A stretch of DNA of 64,000 nt, taken from NCBI GenBank assembly GCA_903916735.1, contig CAIWXX010000054.1, forward strand, positions 1-64,000, given 5' to 3'. Positions 8,085-21,111 of the stretch are shown piece after piece. The translations under genes and the position numbers were made by a program. The stretch is from an uncultured Acidobacteriota bacterium (GTDB lineage Bacteria; Acidobacteriota; CAIWXX01). The notes under the pieces are model-generated. The model worked only from the letters and a program-made list of their open reading frames with translations. It searched no databases and was not told where the DNA came from. The first letter of the stretch is position 1. Each line of letters opens with the position of its first letter.

Positions 8085-8358
8085 GGAACCTCCACAGTAT
8101 TGCCGGCGAGCCTCTCTGAATCGCCGGGCCTAAAATAACCTGCATAGCATTCCCCAAATGGGTTGCGAAAGCAAGTTCTCCAAACGCTCATGACTGCCGC
8201 GGCGTCGGTGTTGGCGATCAAAAAGGCGAAGCAAAAAGGAAAAAGGAAATATGACGGGTCATCGTCACGCCTGAAATCTTGTGATGCTAATTTGACAACC
8301 ATGCCAAGCGGGAATAGATTCTGACAAGTTTCTGATTATCTAGCGGAGGTAAAATTCT

Positions 8359-8979
8359 ATGTCATTCTGCAGCCAATGCGGCGTGAAAAATGTCGATGAC
8401 GCTCGATTCTGCCAAACCTGTGGTGCGGCGCTTCTCGCAGCTCCAGCCGGGGCTCCAATAGCACAGCAACCTCAAGCAGCTCCACCGCCACCACTATCTC
8501 CAGTAGCGCCTCCACAAGCCTATGGCCCTCAGCAGTATCAACAGCCGGTCCCGCCTTTTCAACCGCAACCTCCTTACGGCGGACAGCCGCAGTATGGCGC
8601 TCCGCAGCCACCCCCCGGCGCCTATCCTCCGAATTACTACCCACCTCAGCAACAGGCCATGCCCAAGCGGAAGGGTACAGTTGCTGCAGCCATACTTGGA
8701 TTTTTCCTCGGCGGCTTCGGTGCGCAGGCTTTTTATAATGGCCAAATGAAAAAGGGCGGCGTACAACTGGTCGCTTTTTGGATTGTCTGGCTGTTCCTCC
8801 TGCCCTGGCCACAGCCGGTCTTCGATCCGATGACCGGCCAGGTCGGGCCATCAAGCGGACCTGTCACCATCAGACTTATCGTGGGACTTCTCTTCGCTGC
8901 CGCCTGCGCGTTTGATGGATACAAAACAGCCGAGCGGATCAACAATGGAGAACAGATCAAGGATTTCGGGTTTTTCTGA
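8359..8979 (+). CDS. Zinc-ribbon protein with C-terminal TM2 domain
   Basis: A 206-residue protein. Two CxxC pairs (Cys4/7 and Cys18/21; FCSQCG and FCQTCG) form an N-terminal zinc ribbon. A Pro/Gln-rich linker spans about 30-100, followed by a TM2 domain (about 108-200) whose first helix reads AAILGFFLGGFGAQAFYNGQ. The arrangement puts a small zinc module in the cytoplasm next to a two-helix membrane hairpin. GCGGAGG at 8343-8349 supports the ATG. It opens a plus-strand series of zinc-ribbon proteins ending in a HerA-like ATPase, so it may anchor that complex at the membrane; this role is inferred. Confidence 0.85.
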   Translation: MSFCSQCGVKNVDDARFCQTCGAALLAAPAGAPIAQQPQAAPPPPLSPVAPPQAYGPQQYQQPVPPFQPQPPYGGQPQYGAPQPPPGAYPPNYYPPQQQAMPKRKGTVAAAILGFFLGGFGAQAFYNGQMKKGGVQLVAFWIVWLFLLPWPQPVFDPMTGQVGPSSGPVTIRLIVGLLFAAACAFDGYKTAERINNGEQIKDFGFF

Positions 8980-9521
8980 AATCAAAAACTCCGCGCCTTA
9001 TCATGCATCATTCTGAGGGCGCCGCCGGCGCCCGAAGAATCTCCCGGCGCTCCGAAATTATATCTGGCCTAAATTCGCATTGAAACCCTTGCGCATCTTC
9101 CTGTACCTACTCCAGCTCCCGGCTCGGTTGGATTTACGTTGTGAGCGAAACAGCATCAATGCTGTTCGCGAGTGCATCGACAGGGCGAATGTGATCCCCG
9201 GATCTGCGGGAATCCCCGATCCCGCAGCATTCCTAGAACCCGTCGAATTTACTGGGTATTATTAAACCAATTGGGTGATACGTTGGTTGCTGCAGAGGAA
9301 CCGAGGCGCCAAGGAACGGAGGTGAGCAGGCTCCTCTGCACCTCTTCTGTTGCGAGAAAAAAGGAATCTCAAATGCAATATTAATGCCGCGGGATTAGGG
9401 GGCATCAACGCGAATTGACCGGCTTAATCGTGCGTGATATGAAAGTCCGAGTTGAGCAGCAAGATTCTAATCCAAAAGCTCACGACAGGAGGGGACTCGC
9501 TAGAGAAGGGGGCACATAAAT
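8980..9521. other. Intergenic region with two strong hairpins
   Basis: No gene recognised. A perfect hairpin GGGCGCC-GCC-GGCGCCC lies at 9017-9033, 38 bases after the TM2 gene stop, without a T-tract. A second, CTGCGGGA/TCCCGCAG, is at 9204-9211 and 9220-9227. They may partly terminate or stabilise the transcript between the TM2 gene and the rest of the cassette. Confidence 0.45.
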
Positions 9522-10241
9522 ATGGAAAAGAGGAGCTTCTACGCGCCGGACATCGACATTTCGACACTCGGACAATCGCTACAAGATTGGTTCACACAAC
9601 AACAATATGAGACTCAAATTCCGCCTTCACAAGCCGGCGGGATCACAGTACAGGCACGGAAAGAAAGCACGCTGCGGAAGGTTATCGGCATGGCCAATGC
9701 ACTCACCGTCGTCATCAACCTCGACGGCGAATACATCACGATCGAGATGGGCGGCGCCAAGTGGGCTGAGAAGGGTGCTGTCGGAGCCGTCGGGCTTCTT
9801 ATCTTCTGTCCCGCACTCATCACGGCTGGTATCGGCGCGTTTCAGCAGTCACAGGTTCAAACGCAAGCGTGGCAGTTCATCGAAGGTTTTCTTAAATCCA
9901 ATTCGGCTTATGGAGGGAGTATGATGGGAGCCGGCTCCCCTTTTGGCCCCGCGCCTTCTCCTTCTGTCTTTCCCGGACAACCGCCATTGGCCTCACTGCG
10001 ACAACATGATCCTGCATCGCCGCCTCCGCCTGTCAACCTCGGACAGGCGCCTGCCGCCGAGCAGGGTGAAGCCGTCGACGCGAAGTGTCCTCAGTGCAAT
10101 CAGCCATTGCGGCCAGGCTCCAAGTTCTGCAACTCGTGTGGAAACCCGATTCCTTCGAGTGCCGCATATTGCCTGGGATGCGGCAGGCCTCTACTCGCGG
10201 GCGCCCGATTCTGCGATGCTTGTGGGACACCGGTCAGCTAA
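9522..10241 (+). CDS. Uncharacterised protein with C-terminal double zinc ribbon
   Basis: A 239-residue protein of unknown function. Residues about 1-80 are a folded domain (YAPDIDISTLGQSLQDWFTQ, then a beta-rich part VVINLDGEYITIEMGG). A hydrophobic helix lies at about 88-108 (GAVGAVGLLIFCPALITAGI). A Pro-rich linker is followed by four CxxC pairs (CPQC, CNSC, CLGC, CDAC), i.e. two zinc ribbons of the same style as the neighbouring genes. The shared zinc-ribbon modules in three consecutive genes argue for a common assembly. A purine stretch (GGGGGCAC) upstream is a weak ribosome site for the ATG. Confidence 0.8.
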   Translation: MEKRSFYAPDIDISTLGQSLQDWFTQQQYETQIPPSQAGGITVQARKESTLRKVIGMANALTVVINLDGEYITIEMGGAKWAEKGAVGAVGLLIFCPALITAGIGAFQQSQVQTQAWQFIEGFLKSNSAYGGSMMGAGSPFGPAPSPSVFPGQPPLASLRQHDPASPPPPVNLGQAPAAEQGEAVDAKCPQCNQPLRPGSKFCNSCGNPIPSSAAYCLGCGRPLLAGARFCDACGTPVS

Positions 10242-10272
10242 TTGAACGTTGCGGAAACACTTGGAGATAGAA

Positions 10273-11958
10273 ATGCCTCATCCGGCTGAATCAGCGACGC
10301 CGAAACACTGTATCTCTTGCGGCCAGCCACTCAACCCGCAATCCTGCTTCTGCGTTAGATGCGGCGCACGAGTTGGCACGGCTGCAGCATCCACGCAGTT
10401 TGCAGCGCCCCCTCCGCCCCCGGCAGTGGGTGCGGCACATTCTCCTGGTGGAGTCACACCGCCTCCTCCAGCAGCCCGCCCGGTGGTTCAACTACCGGCC
10501 AAGGCGACGCCGCCGGCCGCGACTCCACAATCAGCACCACCTGCTCCCCTCACTGGCTTTCAGATCACTTTGCAGGCGGCGGGTCCATATCGGGCACGCG
10601 TACTCATGATCCTGCAGCAATCTCTCGGACTCAATGCCGCCAATGCCAATGCGTATATCGCATCCGCACCGGTGCTTCTGGCCATCGGCTTGAATGAGGA
10701 TGCGGCGATGAGGCTTCGAGCGGCACTCGTCGGCGCCGGCGCCTTCGTTTCCATACAGGGGCCGCCTCCGCCGCCTCCTCCGGCAGAAGAAAAGGCTCGC
10801 CCACCCAAACCCGAACCGGTTCGCAAAATGGCGGCGACAATGCGAACTCTGCGCGAAATTCCTGAACGACGGGGACTTCGCACAGTCACTGGCCTGGCCA
10901 TCGGGCGCACTTTCTCCTACCTTGCGTACGCTCGCGCCGAAGGTCGCCGTCTGGTCGCTCCTCCTGACTTCATCCGCTTTGATGCGCGCATCTTATTGCC
11001 GACCGCATTGAAACCCGCCGGCGGGGGTTCCGGTGAAACCGTCGGACTCGCTGCTCTGGCCCAGTGGCCTCGATATCCTGAAGACGTAAGAATCGGATTC
11101 CTGACCGAGATGGGAAAGGATGATGGGCAGTCGGTTATCACATTGAGGAGTTATCTCAAAGCGATGGCTTTCCGGTTGGCTGAGGTTCTCGGCCCTGATT
11201 CCCTCGATGCACACTCAGGGTCGGAGACGAACATCAGTATCGATCCTGAATGGGCCGATGACATGGCGCGGCTTCTGGCAACAACGGCCGAAGATGCTGG
11301 ATTCCCGGTGGCGAGAGTCGTTCCCGATCCACTGGCAGCACTCTCCTTCAATCTTCAGAAGGGGTTGCTGAAAGCAGTTCACGGCGTCGAACACATCATG
11401 GTCGTGGACTGGGGTGGCCAGGGACTCAGCATCTCTTTCATTGAACGATGCGATGATAAAGAGCCTGTCGTCTTCGATACCACCGACTTTCCAATGGGTG
11501 GAATGTGGCTTGATATGATCATCGAAAATTGGCTCCGGCAGAAGTTGCCGGAAGAGCTCCCAGACGAAGATCGCCGCGCGCTCACGCTCTTTGCTCATGA
11601 TTTCAAGGAAGAGGCGTCCCGATCATTTGCGGATGGCCGAACCGAACATGTTCAATACTGCGTCACGCCTGCCGGCACTCCTCCAACTCGCCTCGTCATC
11701 ACTCGCTCCGAGATGGAGAGCCTTCTCAAGGATGCCAAAGAACAGCTCCAAAAAATTCTTGTCGAAGCCGTGGTGCGGATCGGCTTCAAGCCCGAACATC
11801 TTGACCAGATACTGCTGGTTGGCGGTGGAGCGCGATGGTACTTCGCGCGAGAAGCCGTTCGGACGGCGCTTGGGCGAGTCCCCTTGATGAGCCCACAGCC
11901 AGAAGAGAGCATCGCTCGCGGGCTCGCCGTCAGCGGGATGATGTTGGGGAAAGGGTGA
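10273..11958 (+). CDS. Zinc ribbon - L7/L12-like - Hsp70-like ATPase fusion
   Basis: A 561-residue protein with a novel-looking domain order. Residues 13-30 form a zinc ribbon (CISCG and CVRCG). A Pro/Ala linker follows. Residues about 96-162 resemble the C-terminal domain of ribosomal protein L7/L12 (LMILQQSLGLNAANANAYIA, ending MRLRAALVGAGAFVSI). Residues about 205-560 are an actin-fold ATPase of the Hsp70/DnaK type: TVTGLAIGRTFSYLAYA (phosphate 1), HIMVVDWGGQGLSISF (phosphate 2), QILLVGGGARWYFAREAV (adenosine site) and ESIARGLAV. No substrate-binding domain follows. A TTG further upstream is possible, but the ATG at 10273 has GGAG six bases upstream. It sits 31 bp after the double zinc-ribbon gene. 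Confidence 0.85.
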   Translation: MPHPAESATPKHCISCGQPLNPQSCFCVRCGARVGTAAASTQFAAPPPPPAVGAAHSPGGVTPPPPAARPVVQLPAKATPPAATPQSAPPAPLTGFQITLQAAGPYRARVLMILQQSLGLNAANANAYIASAPVLLAIGLNEDAAMRLRAALVGAGAFVSIQGPPPPPPPAEEKARPPKPEPVRKMAATMRTLREIPERRGLRTVTGLAIGRTFSYLAYARAEGRRLVAPPDFIRFDARILLPTALKPAGGGSGETVGLAALAQWPRYPEDVRIGFLTEMGKDDGQSVITLRSYLKAMAFRLAEVLGPDSLDAHSGSETNISIDPEWADDMARLLATTAEDAGFPVARVVPDPLAALSFNLQKGLLKAVHGVEHIMVVDWGGQGLSISFIERCDDKEPVVFDTTDFPMGGMWLDMIIENWLRQKLPEELPDEDRRALTLFAHDFKEEASRSFADGRTEHVQYCVTPAGTPPTRLVITRSEMESLLKDAKEQLQKILVEAVVRIGFKPEHLDQILLVGGGARWYFAREAVRTALGRVPLMSPQPEESIARGLAVSGMMLGKG

Positions 11959-12211
11959 TTGGGGATGTTGGATCTGGAGCGGGAACGGGTACGGGGGACT
12001 GACTGGGAATCTGGAACTGACAACCGGGGACTATTGCCATGCATCATGCCGAATTGAATATTGTTGACAAACGCGGGCGCGGACGAAATTCGTCGACGTT
12101 TACCTCTACGGCCATGTTCACCTGGAGAGGGGCGGGGGGCGGGGCAATCGTGATGCGTCTGGTCCGGCCTGGCACCCTTGAAGCACGACACTAAGAGAGA
12201 GGTGAAGGGAT
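11959..12211 (+). other. Intergenic guanine-run tract between Hsp70-like and HerA-like genes
   Basis: Two clusters of G-runs on the coding strand: about 11965-11998 (GGGG, then GGG, GGG and GGGGG with short spacers after one long loop) and 12128-12144 (GGGG-C-GGGGGG-C-GGGG). Both could fold as G-quadruplexes. AAGGGAT just before 12212 is the likely ribosome site of the next gene. Confidence 0.5.
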
Positions 12212-15200
12212 ATGGCGATACAACTTGCGGGGCCGCAGGGTCAGGTGATGAACCTTGCCGACAATGCACTCAGCCGAGGTCTTCTGACAGCACTCGAAAG
12301 ACGCTATCTTCCGGGCGTGCCTGAGCTCGGACTGGTGCCGGTGCAGTCCGACCCGAACCTCATGGCCAATATCCGTTTCCTGCGAATTCTGGAAGTGGCT
12401 CACTCGTCGGATCTGAACCGGAGTCTGCATGCGCTCAATATGCAGAATGTCATCAGCTCCTTCCGAGATGGTTCGCATTCGCTCATCTTCATCGTCTCCG
12501 GCGATGCCAATTCCACACGCATCTACATCGGGCTTCACAAGTCCGATCCTGAAAGCCATGCTCACACGGCGGATTATATTGAGATTCTTTCGAGCGCCCT
12601 GCACGGGAATTTTCCCGGCATCCGGCTGGCTCCGCTGGATCCTCGTGCTGTCTCGACGGATGTTCTGAAACCGATCGCGAGCCTGCGCCGCGTGGGCGCA
12701 ATTACAGGAATTCCATCGCAAAAGGAGGATTCCCAAGACATCTTTGTGCAGGGCCTCGAGCGAATAGCCAACAGCCTTCGAGGAGAACAATACTGCCTAA
12801 TCGTCATTGCCGAACCGATTTCGGAAACGGCTGTTGACGACGTCATCCAGCACTGCCGTGATCTGAGCTCGGAGATCCACGCATACGTCAAGGGGACTTT
12901 TTCGGATTCATCAGGGCATACGACGTCGCGCGCCGATCAGAAAGGCGGGTCGCTTGCGGGAGGGCTGCTTGTTGGCGGCGGCTCCCTACTCGGCTCCATG
13001 CTGGGGCTCGGCCCCATCATGGGCATGGCGGCGCCCCTGCTACAGGCCGTCGTCGGCGGAGCGGGATTTTCGCTGGGACGCACCGATACAACATCGGATC
13101 AGCGGACGATCGGGACGAGTCGCGAGGTGCTCAACAAGACGGCGGAAACATGCGAGACCTTGCTCGATCGCTATGTGGAGCGCCTACAGGAAGGGAAAAA
13201 CCTGGGCTTCTGGAATTCGGGCATCTTCCTGCTGGCCGAAGATGAGAACACACTGCATCGTGCGCAGGGAGTCGTCAGGGCGATTCTCTCGGGCGAGCAA
13301 ACCTACTTCGAGCCCTTGCGATCCATCGACCTGACAGGGCATGACGAAGTCCTGCGAGATGCGATGATGCAGTTCCGAAACCCCGCGATTCAGTTTCCGG
13401 CTCAAGCACCCCACCCACTCGGCGCCGTCTTCCAGCAACTCGCGACACCGATCAACACCGCCGAATTGTCGCTCATCATGGGACTGCCCCGGGAAGAGGT
13501 CCCTGGGATCCGGCTCACGCCAATGGCGGACTTTGGATTGAATCCACCCGCCTCCGATGGATTTGCACTCGGCCAGGTCATCTACCGCGGCGAAGTGCTT
13601 CCTGATCGTTTCAACATTCCGCCGAAAAGCTTGACAAAACACACTTTCATCACGGGAATCACGGGCTCTGGAAAAACCAACACGTGTCTGGCGCTGCTGC
13701 GGGCGGCGTATGAACGGGAACAGGTTCCGTTTCTGGTCATTGAGCCTGCCAAGACCGAGTACCGCGTGCTGCTTGCCGATCCCATCATGGGACGTGACTT
13801 GCAGGTCTTCACTCTCGGCGATGAAACGACATCTCCCTTTCGATTGAATCCATTTCAGTTTGCGCGAGGCTACCCGCTGCTGACGCATATCGATCTCCTC
13901 AAGTCCGTTTTCAACGCGAGTTTCCCGATGTACGCTTCCATGCCCTACATCCTCGAAGAGGCCGTTTTGGACGTTTACACCGATCGCGGATGGGATCTGG
14001 CGCGTTCCGAGAATCGTTATATCGACTACATGAAAGAGGATTACTCGGCCTATCTCCCGACACTCGAAGATCTCTACAACCAGATCGACACGGTTGTCGA
14101 GCGCAAGAAGTACGCCCAGCAACTCAGCATGGACATCTCCGCTGCACTCAAAGCGCGCATTAAAAGCCTGCTCATCGGCGGCAAAGGACTCATGCTCAAC
14201 ACTCGCCGCAGCTATCCACCGGAACTCCTGTTCAACAAGCCGACCGTCATGGAGCTCAAGAATGTCGGGGACGACGCCGAGAAAGCATTCCTCATGGCAC
14301 TGCTTCTCATTAACCTGTATCAATACTGCGAGACGAGTCGCAAATATGGCGGCGGGTTGCAGCACCTCACGCTGATCGAAGAATCGCACCGGCTGCTGAA
14401 AAATATCCCTCCGGCAGTCGGCGCCGACTCAGCCAACCCTCGCGGCAAAGCCGTCGAGATGTTCACAGACATTCTGGCTGAAATCCGTGAATATGGCGAA
14501 GGATTCATTATCGTCGATCAGGTGCCGGCGAAACTCACGCCGGACGCCATCAAGAACACGAACCTCAAAATTCTGCATCGAATCGTTGCGGAAGATGATC
14601 GCACATCAGTCGGCAACGCGATGAACCTCACGGCCGAGCAGAAGGAACACGTCGTGCGCCTGCGGGTGGGGCAGGCCGTCATCCACAACGAGTACCTCGA
14701 CAAACCCATTCTCCTGCAAGTCTACGGCGTCAAGGATAATATTCGGGATCAGTTCGAACGAGATATCGGGCGGGAAGGGCTCCGCAGCAAGATGACCGCC
14801 TTCCAGAATAAGGTGCGCGATATTTACCGCCGCTATCCAGCCTGTGCTCGATGCGATGCCCCGTGCATCTATTTTTCAGATCTCAATGCGCCTGATGGGG
14901 AATCGTATGAGAGATTCCAGCGATTCCTGGATTGCCTTGTCGTCGGGCCGCCGCCAGCGACACGACAGGAATGGAACCGAACTCTCGCGACCCTACGAGA
15001 TGGATTGCGCAAGCGGCATGCCGGTGAGAATCCGGCGCCCGGAGTCGTTTTTTGTCATGTTGTGCAGTTGGCGCACGCCGCACTGAGAGAACGCCTCAGC
15101 TATTATCGTGGCGGCTTCGGCGGATATAGGTCTTATATTCGCCTTGAAGAACTGCTCATGGATTTGCTGTGGGGCATGACGGGCGATGGACCACTCAGCC

Positions 15201-15583
15201 AGGAGGCAGCCGAAAAGGCGGTCGCCTATCTCGACGAAATGCGCAGCAAGATTGCGATGCAGCCACGGCGCCTGGAACCTGGGTGCCGATTCTGCCGGAG
15301 ACAATGCGCCTACGGATTCATGGTCCAACGTGATTTGCAATCGAAGGCAAAAGCTCTGGCAGCCCGTCTGAAAAATGCGGCTGAACAACCGGGATTCGTT
15401 AATAATTTCAAGAAACTCGTGGACGTCGTCCAATCTTTCTCACAAGATGTCACACCGTTTGCAGTATCACCTCAACACCTGCACCCGCTGGCTTTCTGCT
15501 ATCTCGTCAATTCAGGCGCGCAAAGACCATACGTCCTGCAAGGCTTTCAACAGGTGGCCGACTCGTCGGCCAAGAGCAAGTAA
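12212..15583 (+). CDS. HerA/VirB4-like P-loop ATPase with cysteine-rich C-terminus
   Basis: A 1123-residue ATPase of the FtsK-HerA superfamily (DUF87/DUF853-like core). The N-terminal about 420 residues are family-specific and include a Gly-rich hydrophobic stretch at about 250-295 (GGLLVGGGSLLGSMLGLGPI) that may contact the membrane. Walker A is GITGSGKTN at about 482-490, followed by the typical FLVIEPAKTEYR; Walker B is LTLIEESHR at about 719-727, and a sensor-like segment reads GEGFIIVDQVP. C-terminal cysteine clusters (CARCDAPC about 878 and CRFCRRQC about 1025) probably bind metal. Homologues pump DNA or protein through ring channels; the substrate here is unknown. Next to an Hsp70-like gene, this is the motor of the cassette. 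Confidence 0.9.
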   Translation: MAIQLAGPQGQVMNLADNALSRGLLTALERRYLPGVPELGLVPVQSDPNLMANIRFLRILEVAHSSDLNRSLHALNMQNVISSFRDGSHSLIFIVSGDANSTRIYIGLHKSDPESHAHTADYIEILSSALHGNFPGIRLAPLDPRAVSTDVLKPIASLRRVGAITGIPSQKEDSQDIFVQGLERIANSLRGEQYCLIVIAEPISETAVDDVIQHCRDLSSEIHAYVKGTFSDSSGHTTSRADQKGGSLAGGLLVGGGSLLGSMLGLGPIMGMAAPLLQAVVGGAGFSLGRTDTTSDQRTIGTSREVLNKTAETCETLLDRYVERLQEGKNLGFWNSGIFLLAEDENTLHRAQGVVRAILSGEQTYFEPLRSIDLTGHDEVLRDAMMQFRNPAIQFPAQAPHPLGAVFQQLATPINTAELSLIMGLPREEVPGIRLTPMADFGLNPPASDGFALGQVIYRGEVLPDRFNIPPKSLTKHTFITGITGSGKTNTCLALLRAAYEREQVPFLVIEPAKTEYRVLLADPIMGRDLQVFTLGDETTSPFRLNPFQFARGYPLLTHIDLLKSVFNASFPMYASMPYILEEAVLDVYTDRGWDLARSENRYIDYMKEDYSAYLPTLEDLYNQIDTVVERKKYAQQLSMDISAALKARIKSLLIGGKGLMLNTRRSYPPELLFNKPTVMELKNVGDDAEKAFLMALLLINLYQYCETSRKYGGGLQHLTLIEESHRLLKNIPPAVGADSANPRGKAVEMFTDILAEIREYGEGFIIVDQVPAKLTPDAIKNTNLKILHRIVAEDDRTSVGNAMNLTAEQKEHVVRLRVGQAVIHNEYLDKPILLQVYGVKDNIRDQFERDIGREGLRSKMTAFQNKVRDIYRRYPACARCDAPCIYFSDLNAPDGESYERFQRFLDCLVVGPPPATRQEWNRTLATLRDGLRKRHAGENPAPGVVFCHVVQLAHAALRERLSYYRGGFGGYRSYIRLEELLMDLLWGMTGDGPLSQEAAEKAVAYLDEMRSKIAMQPRRLEPGCRFCRRQCAYGFMVQRDLQSKAKALAARLKNAAEQPGFVNNFKKLVDVVQSFSQDVTPFAVSPQHLHPLAFCYLVNSGAQRPYVLQGFQQVADSSAKSK

Positions 15584-15601
15584 TCCCTTAGGAGTACTAC
15601 T

Positions 15602-15790
15602 ATGTCCCAGAATCCGGCAAATGCAGATATCACACCTGAAGCCATTAAGGATGTCGATCACCTTCCAGAACGAATCGGTGAAGTCGATGAAGCTCGTTTC
15701 AAGCCGCCTGCGGATGAAGCGCGAGCCGAGCTCGAACAGGCCCTTGCAAAGGGATTCCCGGAGCCCGAAGCCAAAATTAAAACAAACTGA
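15602..15790 (+). CDS. Small acidic protein downstream of the HerA-like ATPase
   Basis: A 62-residue hydrophilic acidic protein starting MSQNPANADITPEAIKDVDH, with no membrane segment or cysteine. GGAG at 15591-15594 sits eight bases before the ATG, and the gene begins 18 bp after the ATPase stop, so it is probably translated from the same message. No family recognised; it could be a small regulatory or adaptor subunit. Confidence 0.6.
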   Translation: MSQNPANADITPEAIKDVDHLPERIGEVDEARFKPPADEARAELEQALAKGFPEPEAKIKTN

Positions 15791-15882
15791 GGCCGACCGA
15801 TCTCGTGAAAATTATTCGGAGAGCCACGGATGTGCATAGAGGAAACGCATTAATAACCGGCTAAGGGCAGGATACTCTTCAA

Positions 15883-15914
15883 CCCCTGGCCCCTAGACAC
15901 TGAACCCAGGACCC
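15883..15914 (-). other. C-run tract (possible G-quadruplex on the minus strand)
   Basis: Four C-runs (CCCC, CCCC, CCC, CCC) at 15883-15914 in the gap between the two small-protein genes. On the opposite strand they form a quadruplex-type pattern with loops of 3, 11 and 4 bases. Confidence 0.45.
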
Positions 15915-15937
15915 TAACCTTTTCATGGAGGCAATCG

Positions 15938-16594
15938 ATGGCTGACGACACAACCGAAAGCACCGCCGAACAAAAAACTGAATCGACGAGCACATCCGAA
16001 ACCAAGGCGGAGGCGGCTCCTGAGACAAAGCAGGAAGTCGAGAAGTCCCTGGATTGGAACAAGCCCGAAGCGGCGCCGCCGAAAGACCAAAAGGACAGCT
16101 CGGCCGATATCGCCGAACCTAAGAACGCGACGGATAATTCCGAGGCCAAGGAAAAGGCTGATTGGCAGGAGTATCGAGCCGAAGGCAAAAAGACGGATGC
16201 CGAATGGCAGGACTATTACGCGAAAAATAAAGAGCAGGATGCAGATTGGAATAAGTACAAGGCCGAGTCCGCCGATAATAAGGAAGATCGGGACTATTAT
16301 GCCGCGAAAGCCGGCGACAATAAGGCAGAGGCACACGACTACAAACATGAAGCGGCGGAGAAACGCGAGGAGCGAGCGGATCTGCAGACGGATGCGGCAG
16401 AGACACGCAAGGATGTGGCCACCGATAAATGGGAGGAGAGCCGGTTGAACGAGTCCTCGGAACAGCGCTCGAAGGATTCAGAAGCTTGGAAGAACGAAGC
16501 CGAGAAACAGACGCAGGAGAAATGGAAAGATCAGGAAAACGCGAATAACATTCGCACGTGGGGCACCGAAGAAGCCGCGAAGATGAAGGATTAG
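15938..16594 (+). CDS. Highly charged Trp/Lys/Glu repeat protein
   Basis: A 218-residue, very hydrophilic protein without cysteine or any hydrophobic segment. After an acidic Ser/Thr-rich N-terminus, residues about 75-125 repeat a Trp-containing unit (ADWQEYRAEGKK, AEWQDYYAKNKE, ADWNKYKAESAD), and the rest is Ala/Glu/Lys-rich helix. It is probably an extended or disordered coiled-coil protein, of the type seen in desiccation- or stress-related proteins. GGAGG (15927-15931) supports the start. Its position after the HerA-like gene suggests it belongs to the cassette; no family was recognised. Confidence 0.65.
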   Translation: MADDTTESTAEQKTESTSTSETKAEAAPETKQEVEKSLDWNKPEAAPPKDQKDSSADIAEPKNATDNSEAKEKADWQEYRAEGKKTDAEWQDYYAKNKEQDADWNKYKAESADNKEDRDYYAAKAGDNKAEAHDYKHEAAEKREERADLQTDAAETRKDVATDKWEESRLNESSEQRSKDSEAWKNEAEKQTQEKWKDQENANNIRTWGTEEAAKMKD

Positions 16595-16620
16595 GGAGTC
16601 CGCTGCGAGAATTCTGAGTT

Positions 16621-16656
16621 GGGAAATGGGAGAGGGATTGGGGACTAGGGGCTAGG
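16621..16656 (+). other. Strong G-quadruplex-type motif
   Basis: Six runs of three or four G separated by 3-4 bases (loops AAAT, AGA, ATT, ACTA, CTA) lie 27 bases after the charged-repeat gene, on the RNA-like strand. The pattern meets the usual G3+ short-loop criterion. No other feature is visible in the 363-bp gap 16595-16957 apart from a Shine-Dalgarno (GAGGAGG) for the next gene. Confidence 0.6.
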
Positions 16657-16957
16657 GCCGGAGGGTTGTGATCTGAATCATCATCCTTCGCCCCCATTGG
16701 CGACAACATAAGAAGACAGAATGAAAAATTCAGATGGCCTCAGTTCATTTTTGAAATTTTGAATTTTGATTTTAGCACTTTGCCTTGAGCGATATTTTCC
16801 AAATGACTCATGACTTCTTTATGACAAGTGCCGATCCTTTCATAGCGCGTGCCGAGAGCAAGGGCCTATCCCACGGTCAACTTGCAACAATGATTTGGAT
16901 GGCCTGAAATCCGATATTGAGAACTGGGACTCATAACTGGCAACGAGGAGGCGCACG

Positions 16958-17332
16958 ATGTCCGGCAACGATGACGAGCTTGATCCTTTGCATTCCAGCC
17001 ACTTTCGCCCGGCTGATCCACTGACGCAGGAGGAAGTTGGAGGCGTGCTCGAAAGAGCCTTTCGCCGAGAGGGTGGCGATGAGCCGCAAGAAGCTGAAGC
17101 ACGCCGATTTTTAGAGTTGGCGGATGAAGCCGAAGGGCGAGCAGAAGCGGCTGAGGCGTTGACGCGAGAGGCCGAACGCGCCGCAACTCAGGCGGCTGAA
17201 CGCTATGCGCTGAGCGGCGGCACCGATGATCTTGCCGCCATCAAACGCTGGCAGGAGGCCGCAAGCGAATACCGGCGTGAAGGCGCGTCGCAACGATTGG
17301 AGGCCGAGAGGCTTCGGAAATATTTGCCCTGA
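16958..17332 (+). CDS. Small coiled-coil protein at the end of the cassette
   Basis: A 124-residue acidic helical protein (MSGNDDELDPLHSSHFRPAD, then long Ala/Glu/Arg helices with heptad-like spacing such as EAEGRAEAAEALTREAERAA). It has no cysteine and no membrane segment. GAGGAGG precedes the ATG at a normal distance. It is separated from the previous gene by a guanine-run tract, so co-transcription is not certain. The function is unknown; a coiled-coil adaptor for the cassette is the simplest guess. Confidence 0.6.
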   Translation: MSGNDDELDPLHSSHFRPADPLTQEEVGGVLERAFRREGGDEPQEAEARRFLELADEAEGRAEAAEALTREAERAATQAAERYALSGGTDDLAAIKRWQEAASEYRREGASQRLEAERLRKYLP

Positions 17333-20283: not shown

Positions 20284-21111
20284 CTACACTTCGATGTGAA
20301 AAAACCCTTTGAGACCGAAGCCGAAGATGATGGAGAGAATGAAGAAGGCAATGAGCCAGTTGATGGCGTAGCCGAAGAAATTCAGGTCGTGGGGCGCGTA
20401 AGCGATTTCAACCTTGGTCACCGGCACGTTCTGCGGGATGGCTGGTTCTCCCGGATCAATCAGCCGATCGAGGAATTGATTCCTAACTCTCGCCGTCGAA
20501 ACCTTGGCGAATGGGTTTGCGGAGACTACAACCTGCTTCGTGAATGACTGATTATCGACCTTGAACGTCAATGCATGAAGCCCTTCCTGGAGCCCCTTCA
20601 CTCGCCAGTCGATTTCTTTTTCATCTTCCATCCGCAAAGCCGGAGTCTCAATTTGTATGCCCGGAGACGGCTGCACAGTGAGATCGCTCTGAAGCGGGCT
20701 CTGTTCCATTGTCACCTTCAAAAGCGCGGACTCCCCTGGTTTCAAGGGCCGGCAACCAAACCAAAGATCAAGCTGGATCAGGATGAGCACGATAGGAATC
20801 ATCATGACGAGCATCGGTTTCAGGGCATAAAACATGTATTTGGCGTTATAGCCGAGTATCTTCTTCTGAGCTTGTAAAGTAACCTGGAAGTTATCCTTGT
20901 AAAGACGGAGTTCGAGCAAGTGGGCCTTGATCTTGTCCTTGACCTTCTTGATTCCCTCCTGGTTGGAAGAGTACTTGTAGACCCAGAGCATCAGGAGCGC
21001 CGTCAGAAGAGAGACGACGATCATTCCCACCCAGGGATTCATGTTCTTGAAAGGAAAAAGTAAAAGATCAAATGCTTTTCCGAAGATAAAATTAATTGCT
21101 GAAGCCATCAT
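20284..21111 (-). CDS. Oxa1/EMC3 (DUF106)-like membrane protein
   Basis: A 275-residue membrane protein. TM1 spans about 27-45 (WVGMIVVSLLTALLMLWVY), a charged helical hairpin covers 50-90, TM2 is about 99-118 (PMLVMMIPIVLILIQLDLWF), a periplasmic beta-rich domain follows (about 122-245), and a last TM is at 248-268. The N-terminal third (helix, cytosolic coiled coil, Pro-containing helix) resembles the DUF106/EMC3/YidC insertase superfamily. The periplasmic domain and final helix are additions not usual there. It is the last gene of the minus-strand phosphodiesterase/cysDN group, 137 bp after the small RHH-like gene. The function is a guess from topology. Confidence 0.6.
   Translation of the reverse strand: MMASAINFIFGKAFDLLLFPFKNMNPWVGMIVVSLLTALLMLWVYKYSSNQEGIKKVKDKIKAHLLELRLYKDNFQVTLQAQKKILGYNAKYMFYALKPMLVMMIPIVLILIQLDLWFGCRPLKPGESALLKVTMEQSPLQSDLTVQPSPGIQIETPALRMEDEKEIDWRVKGLQEGLHALTFKVDNQSFTKQVVVSANPFAKVSTARVRNQFLDRLIDPGEPAIPQNVPVTKVEIAYAPHDLNFFGYAINWLIAFFILSIIFGFGLKGFFHIEV

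Follow-up and report, generated by a model that had tools for sequence, protein, structure and literature searches.

A zinc-ribbon, Hsp70-like and VirB4/HerA-like ATPase cassette of an uncultured Acidobacteriota bacterium: a possible divergent member of a toxin-deploying conflict-system family

The first 64,000 nucleotides of contig CAIWXX010000054.1 from an uncultured Acidobacteriota bacterium (assembly GCA_903916735.1; this whole stretch is here called the window) harbor a cassette of seven genes, P1 to P7, in which zinc-ribbon proteins and an Hsp70-like protein precede a large HerA/VirB4-like ATPase. What such a motor does in this company is the question raised by the locus. A sequence-only reading had suggested that the zinc ribbons bring a membrane anchor, an Hsp70-like switch and a ring motor together, perhaps for defence, envelope stress or macromolecule transport. 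In this study, we closely examined the cassette and loci with related ATPases. Relatives occur in many phyla with interchangeable toxin and immunity genes and therefore probably represent a little-described toxin-deployment or conflict system. We tentatively regard the cassette, with a chance that we put just short of even, as a divergent member of this widespread family, built around a hexameric VirB4/HerA-like ATPase that deploys polymorphic toxins and has an exchangeable nucleoside triphosphatase (NTPase) or zinc-ribbon membrane partner.

The genes of the cassette (aa, amino acids) are the following:

8359 to 8979, plus strand: P1, 206 aa, with a zinc ribbon, a Pro/Gln-rich linker and a TM2 domain (Pfam)
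9522 to 10241, plus strand: P2, 239 aa, with a hydrophobic N-terminal segment and C-terminal zinc ribbons (Pfam)
10273 to 11958, plus strand: P3, ~561 aa, with a zinc ribbon, an L12 C-terminal domain (CTD)-like part and an Hsp70 nucleotide-binding domain (NBD) (Pfam, AlphaFold2 [AF2], Foldseek)
12212 to 15583, plus strand: P4, 1123 aa, VirB4/HerA-like ring ATPase (Pfam DUF87, AF2, Foldseek)
15602 to 15790, plus strand: P5, 62 aa, acidic, without known family
15938 to 16594, plus strand: P6, 218 aa, highly charged, without known family
16958 to 17332, plus strand: P7, 124 aa, charged, probably helical, without known family

The motor ATPase resembles VirB4 and HerA

P4 had been read as a 1123-residue HerA/VirB4-like ATPase with C-terminal cysteines, and this description holds. 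Its DUF87/HerA match reaches 31.0 bits (Pfam cut-off, 23.2), and its sequence matches in the PDB include HerA/DUF87 helicases. An AF2 model built from 67 sequences (mean predicted local distance difference test score [pLDDT], 86; predicted template modeling score, 0.80) comprises an alpha/beta N-terminal region, an insert, the ATPase core and, at the C terminus, a helical domain that contains Cys, in this order:

12920 to 13102, plus strand: P4 residues 237 to 297, disordered hydrophobic insert, rich in Gly, that separates two long beta-strands in the N-terminal region (pLDDT <50)
13598 to 14722, plus strand: P4 residues 463 to 837, HerA/VirB4 ATPase core (Pfam)
14732 to 15580, plus strand: P4 residues 841 to 1123, helical C-terminal domain with Cys clusters (AF2, Cys counts)

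The Walker and catalytic residues are invariant in the alignment columns of 67 relatives. Nine Cys residues lie beyond residue 840, in a domain that is rich in Cys also in the family's branches from Chloroflexi, Actinomycetota and Obscuribacterales. In a Foldseek search of the PDB, the model first matched TrwK/VirB4 of the R388 type IV secretion system (T4SS; E = 2e-15, ~1000 aligned columns), followed by HerA and SIR2-HerA. The full-length likeness to TrwK/VirB4 is coarse (whole-chain root mean square deviation of ~17, low TM-score), so that the domains of P4 match those of VirB4, while their arrangement may not. The earlier suggestion of macromolecule transport fits this VirB4-like fold.

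P4 differs from VirB4/TrwK in having the C-terminal Cys domain, and neither other T4SS components nor a relaxase were found in the cassette by Pfam or within the 25 commonest neighbor families of the relatives. HerA/DUF87 helicases (HerA-NurA, SIR2-HerA) share the ATPase core but not the large, unrelated N- and C-terminal regions of P4, and NurA and SIR2 are absent from the cassette. An ordinary HerA repair helicase was rejected, as P4 scores 38.8 bits against the HerA equivalog profile (cut-off, 970) and has no adjacent NurA gene. The best NCBIfam match, NF033849 (ser_rich_anae_1), reaches 95 bits over residues 283 to 800 (cut-off, 650); the insert of P4, however, is Gly-rich and hydrophobic, not Ser-rich. 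P4 belongs to a large, mostly undescribed ATPase family.

The gene upstream of the ATPase varies within the family

Loci were gathered by the ATPase alone (14 plasmid and 80 genome loci) and their neighbors annotated afterwards; partner counts rest on the 81 loci, besides the window, with enough upstream DNA. Single-protein queries of genomes and viral contigs gave no match, and an alignment query recovered the loci there. The 247 genomes of the window's phylum yielded two distant ATPase matches only, and its class comprises two genomes, leaving no near relatives to draw on.

An Hsp70-like gene directly precedes the ATPase on the same strand in 12 of the 81 loci and lies anywhere in the locus in 17, against an expectation of ~0.1% for the exact upstream position (from four PF00012 loci in the 5.37 Mb of the home genome); because the loci are not independent, a binomial significance overstates the pairing. 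The pairing is spread over several distinct ATPase branches and spans Verrucomicrobiota, Lentisphaerota, Synergistota, Bacteroidota and Cyanobacteriota. Three extra loci on viral contigs carry, directly upstream of the ATPase, an Hsp70 gene (L122 and L123) or a gene for a zinc-ribbon transmembrane (TM) protein (L124). The co-occurrence on which the sequence-only reading had staked its proposal is thus conserved well beyond chance. Divergent Hsp70 relatives consisting of the NBD only, as in P3, are located at position -1 of the ATPase in L023, L025 and L084. In a tree with 12 background Hsp70s (DnaK, HscA, HscC and archaeal), the split between these and the ATPase-linked Hsp70s is supported 100/100; as the tree is unrooted, this is a split and does not speak to a single clade of the latter.

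Dynamin pairs occupy the same upstream slot in L011, L016 and L017, and these operons are a dynamin version of the same system. They recall the bacterial dynamins LeoABC (PMC4159319); the window has an Hsp70, not a dynamin, and a link between ATPase and toxin is not discussed in the parts of that paper covered here. Zinc-ribbon membrane proteins, also predicted as partners, recur in other ATPase branches: a protein with a zinc ribbon, an OB-like part and a TM segment, for which Pfam gave no matches besides the ribbons, is the partner in Streptomyces, Bathyarchaeota and Ktedonobacteria, and large zinc-ribbon membrane proteins take this role in Obscuribacterales.

Several of these loci have further features of their own. 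L011 (5259 to 14084), L016 (4328 to 14276) and L017 (5775 to 14174), from plasmids of Lactococcus (L. cremoris, pB26B), Treponema and E. coli, combine the dynamin pair and the ATPase with an HNH-type nuclease and an immunity-like gene, to which L011 and L016 add a WYL regulator. The zinc-ribbon, OB-like and TM protein adjoins the ATPase in L013 (8639 to 9442), L052 (8823 to 9392), L124 (6631 to 7371) and others, from Actinomycetota, Chloroflexota, Bathyarchaeota and one viral contig. Two Hsp70-like genes stand in tandem upstream of the ATPase in L029 (3403 to 7178). L026 and L028, Actinomycetota loci in the ATPase clade of L023, L025 and L084, have an upstream GTPase-like gene and may hide a divergent NBD as well. 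In L010 (3 to 12922), L083 and L089, from Photobacterium, Psychrobacter and Acinetobacter, a DUF2357 gene, the ATPase and a small helical protein follow one another, preceded at some distance by an SF1 helicase in L010; these are probably extended type III-A CoCoNuTs.

Relatives encode modular putative toxins and covarying immunity-like genes

Downstream of the ATPase, relatives carry small toxin genes with nuclease or metallopeptidase C termini. The toxins of L024 and L037 have ~100 N-terminal residues in common (66 of 99 identical) but differ in their C termini (Colicin-DNase/WHH versus Endonuclease_NS_2), and those of L029 and L033 also join common N termini to unrelated C termini. One toxin C terminus is common to L024, L033 and the dynamin-type L011 (z of ~40 to 52), and a third one to L029 and L031. 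At the Hsp70 loci of Bacteroidota, HEGRH metallopeptidases alternate with an LHH nuclease. The gene after the toxin covaries with the toxin type, being DUF6985-like in L011, L024 and L033, SUKH in L012 and L016 and of a third family in L029 and L031; such switching is the behavior expected of an immunity gene. Polymorphic toxins are marked by a constant N terminus, a toxin end that varies and an immunity gene that matches it (PMC3482391), and the downstream pairs of the relatives display these traits in their shuffled N and C termini and covarying +2 gene, with toxin activity predicted from sequence.

The closest relatives of P4 are L021, from Chloroflexi (49% identical), and, from the same phylum as P4, L002. 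In both, HExxH proteins adjoin the ATPase, and L002 also has a PsbP-like gene, a family recorded beside type VI toxins (PMC3482391). Among 124 neighbor proteins, the commonest families are dynamin, Colicin-DNase/WHH, SUKH, WYL, zinc ribbon and metallopeptidases, and PADLOC reported LeoA/LeoBC and WYL. The neighbors point to polymorphic toxins and immunity instead of the envelope stress considered before. Two conserved small genes (~94 and ~80 aa) were observed 3' of the metallopeptidase in the Bacteroidota Hsp70 loci L080 (13455 to 13978), L096, L097 (Bacteroides finegoldii DSM 17565) and L099.

P3 ends after an Hsp70-type nucleotide-binding domain

P3 had been described as a zinc ribbon fused to an L7/L12-like domain and an Hsp70-type ATPase. 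Its parts (Pfam, AF2) are arranged as follows:

~10303 to 10374, plus strand: zinc ribbon
~10558 to 10761, plus strand: L12-CTD-like domain
~10867 to 11946, plus strand: Hsp70 NBD

The Hsp70 assignment stood as far as the NBD is concerned. The HSP70 profile scores 58.3 bits (Pfam cut-off, 20.6) over its positions 155 to 375 only, and a Foldseek search with the AF2 model (pLDDT of 75) returned the DnaK NBD (E = 4.5e-23). The protein terminates after this domain, with the substrate-binding domain absent, and its catalytic motifs are degenerate: GIDxG, the first of the phosphate motifs, is replaced by GLAIG (GID to GLA), and GGGTxD by GGQGLS. The adenosine motif, GGxxRWYF, is like that of the Hsp70 partners in Verrucomicrobiota and Lentisphaerota. 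The L12 CTD (23.5 bits) and the zinc ribbon (16.3 bits) both score under the Pfam cut-off; the former is borne out by the model, in which residues 104 to 171 adopt an L12-like beta-alpha-alpha-beta-alpha-beta fold. Because P3 is NBD-only and has degenerate catalytic motifs, a chaperone role is unlikely; motifs and model suggest a nucleotide-binding or pseudo-ATPase switch. The other matches to P3 in the home genome are two ordinary DnaK-size proteins only. The longest open reading frame (ORF), 10249 to 11958, opens at TTG 10249; most likely, the true start is ATG 10273.

The remaining genes of the cassette

Of the three zinc-ribbon genes in a row proposed from the sequence, P1 and P2 have ribbons that pass the Pfam cut-off, and the ribbon of P3 stays under it. 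P1 has an N-terminal Zn_Ribbon_1 (32.9 bits; cut-off, 25; nucleotides 8365 to 8433) and a TM2 domain (30.2 bits; cut-off, 27.9; ~8671 to 8799). P2 matches DZR (41.2 bits; cut-off, 27.3) and has three Zn_Ribbon_1 stretches at its C terminus, the ribbons covering ~10083 to 10235; its N-terminal domain is hydrophobic, and neither Pfam nor the neighbors at other loci yielded a relative of it. A comparison of P2 with the zinc-ribbon, OB-like and TM family of Actinomycetota found no relationship.

The three small charged proteins expected after the ATPase are present as the ORFs P5 to P7, none of which matched a Pfam family, including WXG100. P5 begins 19 bp 3' of P4 and has a GGAG site, and P6 contains 97 D/E/K/R residues, 9 I/L/V/F/M residues and 8 Trp. 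PADLOC gave weak matches only for the window's proteins (HerA, mad8 and the zinc-ribbon stretch of PD-T4-6); a known defence system was therefore rejected, and the suggestion of defence gains no support from the window's genes.

Proposed function and alternative explanations

In the conflict-system reading, the ATPase would form a ring at the inner membrane face, held there by its hydrophobic insert and/or by the zinc-ribbon membrane proteins P1 and P2. Driven by ATP, the ring would pass its protein cargo through or across the membrane, and P3 would gate or recruit the motor via its nucleotide state, not by client folding. The substrates of the relatives would be the small polymorphic toxins with a conserved N-terminal region and an immunity gene next to them; in the window, P5 to P7 would fill this role. 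An insert of the P4 type is present in 14 of 17 Hsp70-linked ATPases (window included) and 5 of 7 dynamin-linked ones; all 27 ATPases paired with a zinc-ribbon membrane protein lack it. This pattern suggests a membrane element that is replaced elsewhere by a membrane partner. Both are present in the window cassette.

Several findings weigh against this reading. No secretion channel or outer-membrane component was identified, no effector or immunity gene is recognizable in the cassette, and a tblastn search of the window with 200 downstream proteins of relatives gave nothing convincing and revealed no hidden effector. Among the other genomes searched, none yielded a specific homologue of P3, whose tree position is unsure owing to a long branch. 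The contig of L021 begins at the ATPase, so that no upstream gene is readable, and the only Hsp70 match in that genome is one ordinary DnaK-size match. Intergenic gaps of 148 to 543 bp weaken the claim of a single operon, and the correlation between insert and partner is just suggestive, because the groups mostly coincide with two portions of the ATPase tree and phylogeny confounds it.

A bolder version, which we consider doubtful, would make the family a new class of protein export, in which a VirB4/HerA-like ring with its own membrane hairpin or a zinc-ribbon membrane partner and an exchangeable NTPase gate (Hsp70-like, dynamin pair or other) serves polymorphic toxins in many phyla, with a relative in Bathyarchaeota, and the Hsp70 of the window acts as a pseudo-ATPase docking switch. 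The known background is that of polymorphic toxins deployed by motors of the FtsK/HerA type, and a distinct export class is a real possibility.

The strongest rival, although unlikely in our view, is intracellular abortive infection without export: the HerA-like ring and the Hsp70 or dynamin NTPase would sense invasion or membrane disturbance and set free or switch on a nuclease or protease of the same cell, which the next gene restrains. WYL regulators, often linked to defence, occur in several operons, including the Hsp70-type L024 and L030; together with the PADLOC matches to LeoA/LeoBC and WYL, the resemblance of relatives with DUF2357 and SF1 helicase neighbors to extended type III-A CoCoNuTs (PMC11090510) and the HerA-effector pairing known from SIR2-HerA, they favor this view. 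Secreted polymorphic toxins are, however, typified by shuffled termini with cognate immunity (PMC3482391), the top structural match of P4 is a secretion motor, and the window's genes have no notable match to defence families. That P3 passes damaged proteins to a P4 ring at the membrane, as part of a quality-control or envelope-stress machine, would suit the Hsp70 fold, the zinc-ribbon membrane partners and the absence of a toxin from the window; the lack of a substrate-binding domain and of key catalytic residues in P3, the absence of DnaJ, GrpE and a protease from the cassette (Pfam) and the toxin and immunity genes of the relatives make it improbable.

That P4 is a motor that moves DNA in repair or conjugation, like HerA-NurA or VirB4, appears quite improbable: the DUF87/HerA core, the Foldseek matches to HerA and VirB4 and the plasmid location of some relatives are set against the absence of NurA from the cassette (Pfam), the absence of T4SS structural families from the 25 commonest among the 124 neighbors and the presence there of toxins and membrane or switch NTPases. 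Very improbable, finally, is that P1 to P3 (and P7) are mere neighbors of P4 with no functional link. The loose spacing (gaps of 543 and 254 bp) speaks for it, as does the lack of conservation of a P3-type protein beside the ATPase elsewhere, but Hsp70-like and zinc-ribbon membrane genes recur at the exact position in unrelated phyla. With ~15 Zn_Ribbon_1 genes and four PF00012 loci in the 5.37-Mb home genome, three ribbon genes in series, one of them Hsp70-like, are improbable by chance (an estimate, not a formal test).

Comparison with described systems

EccE3-HerA of extended type III-A CoCoNuTs (PMC11090510) has the same variable-length insertion between beta-strands, in an N-terminal region fused to a VirB4-like ATPase, and a small helical protein nearby, as here; L010, L083 and L089 are relatives beside DUF2357-type genes. 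To judge from its published description, it reads like the same family. The cassette differs in having no McrB/McrC (DUF2357), HEPN or TerY, where the absence of McrB/McrC and HEPN covers the cassette genes and the remainder of the 64-kb window was partly scanned, and in its zinc-ribbon Hsp70 NBD partner. GTPase-centric conflict systems (Kaur et al. 2020, PMC7159879) combine Hsp70 and GTPase, some with zinc-ribbon or membrane links; in the parts of that account covered here, a HerA/VirB4 motor is not described as a core, and the NBD-only zinc-ribbon Hsp70 sets the window apart. Type VII secretion does not fit, as P4 has a single ATPase domain versus the triple ATPase of EssC and P5 to P7 lack a WXG100 match. 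The open-access full-text literature (subscription papers, most preprints and supplements being outside its scope) held no description of the ATPase with Hsp70 or dynamin partners and polymorphic toxins.

If the conflict-system reading is correct, anonymous genes for "DUF87" or "ATP-binding protein", which occur on plasmids and chromosomes of, e.g., E. coli, Lactococcus, Bacteroides, cyanobacteria and Streptomyces, would turn out to encode a machinery for toxin deployment or conflict whose parts can be tested. Hsp70-fold and dynamin-fold NTPases would fill one slot, which bears on the gating of secretion and defence motors, and simple predictions would follow on the exported protein, the protecting gene and the dispensable genes.

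Gene organization and home genome

All seven ORFs were located on the plus strand at or near the positions first proposed, each with a plausible Shine-Dalgarno sequence 5' of it. The gaps are 543 bp (P1-P2), 254 bp (P3-P4), 148 bp (P5-P6) and 364 bp (P6-P7). One transcript for P1 to P7 is possible, and the membership of P7, 364 bp after P6, is uncertain. A promoter-like TTGACA-17-TAGATT at 8292 to 8320, 5' of P1, is a consensus match only, and promoter and terminator scans stayed at or barely over the shuffled background. The ATPase gene is present in a single copy in the home genome. Another pair of adjacent zinc-ribbon genes (frames of 350 and 1017 aa) was observed elsewhere in this genome (G000, C151:4655-5771). 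Within the window, a protein with an EMC3/TMCO1-like domain (20284 to 21111), scoring marginally over the cut-off, adjoins a sulfatase gene.

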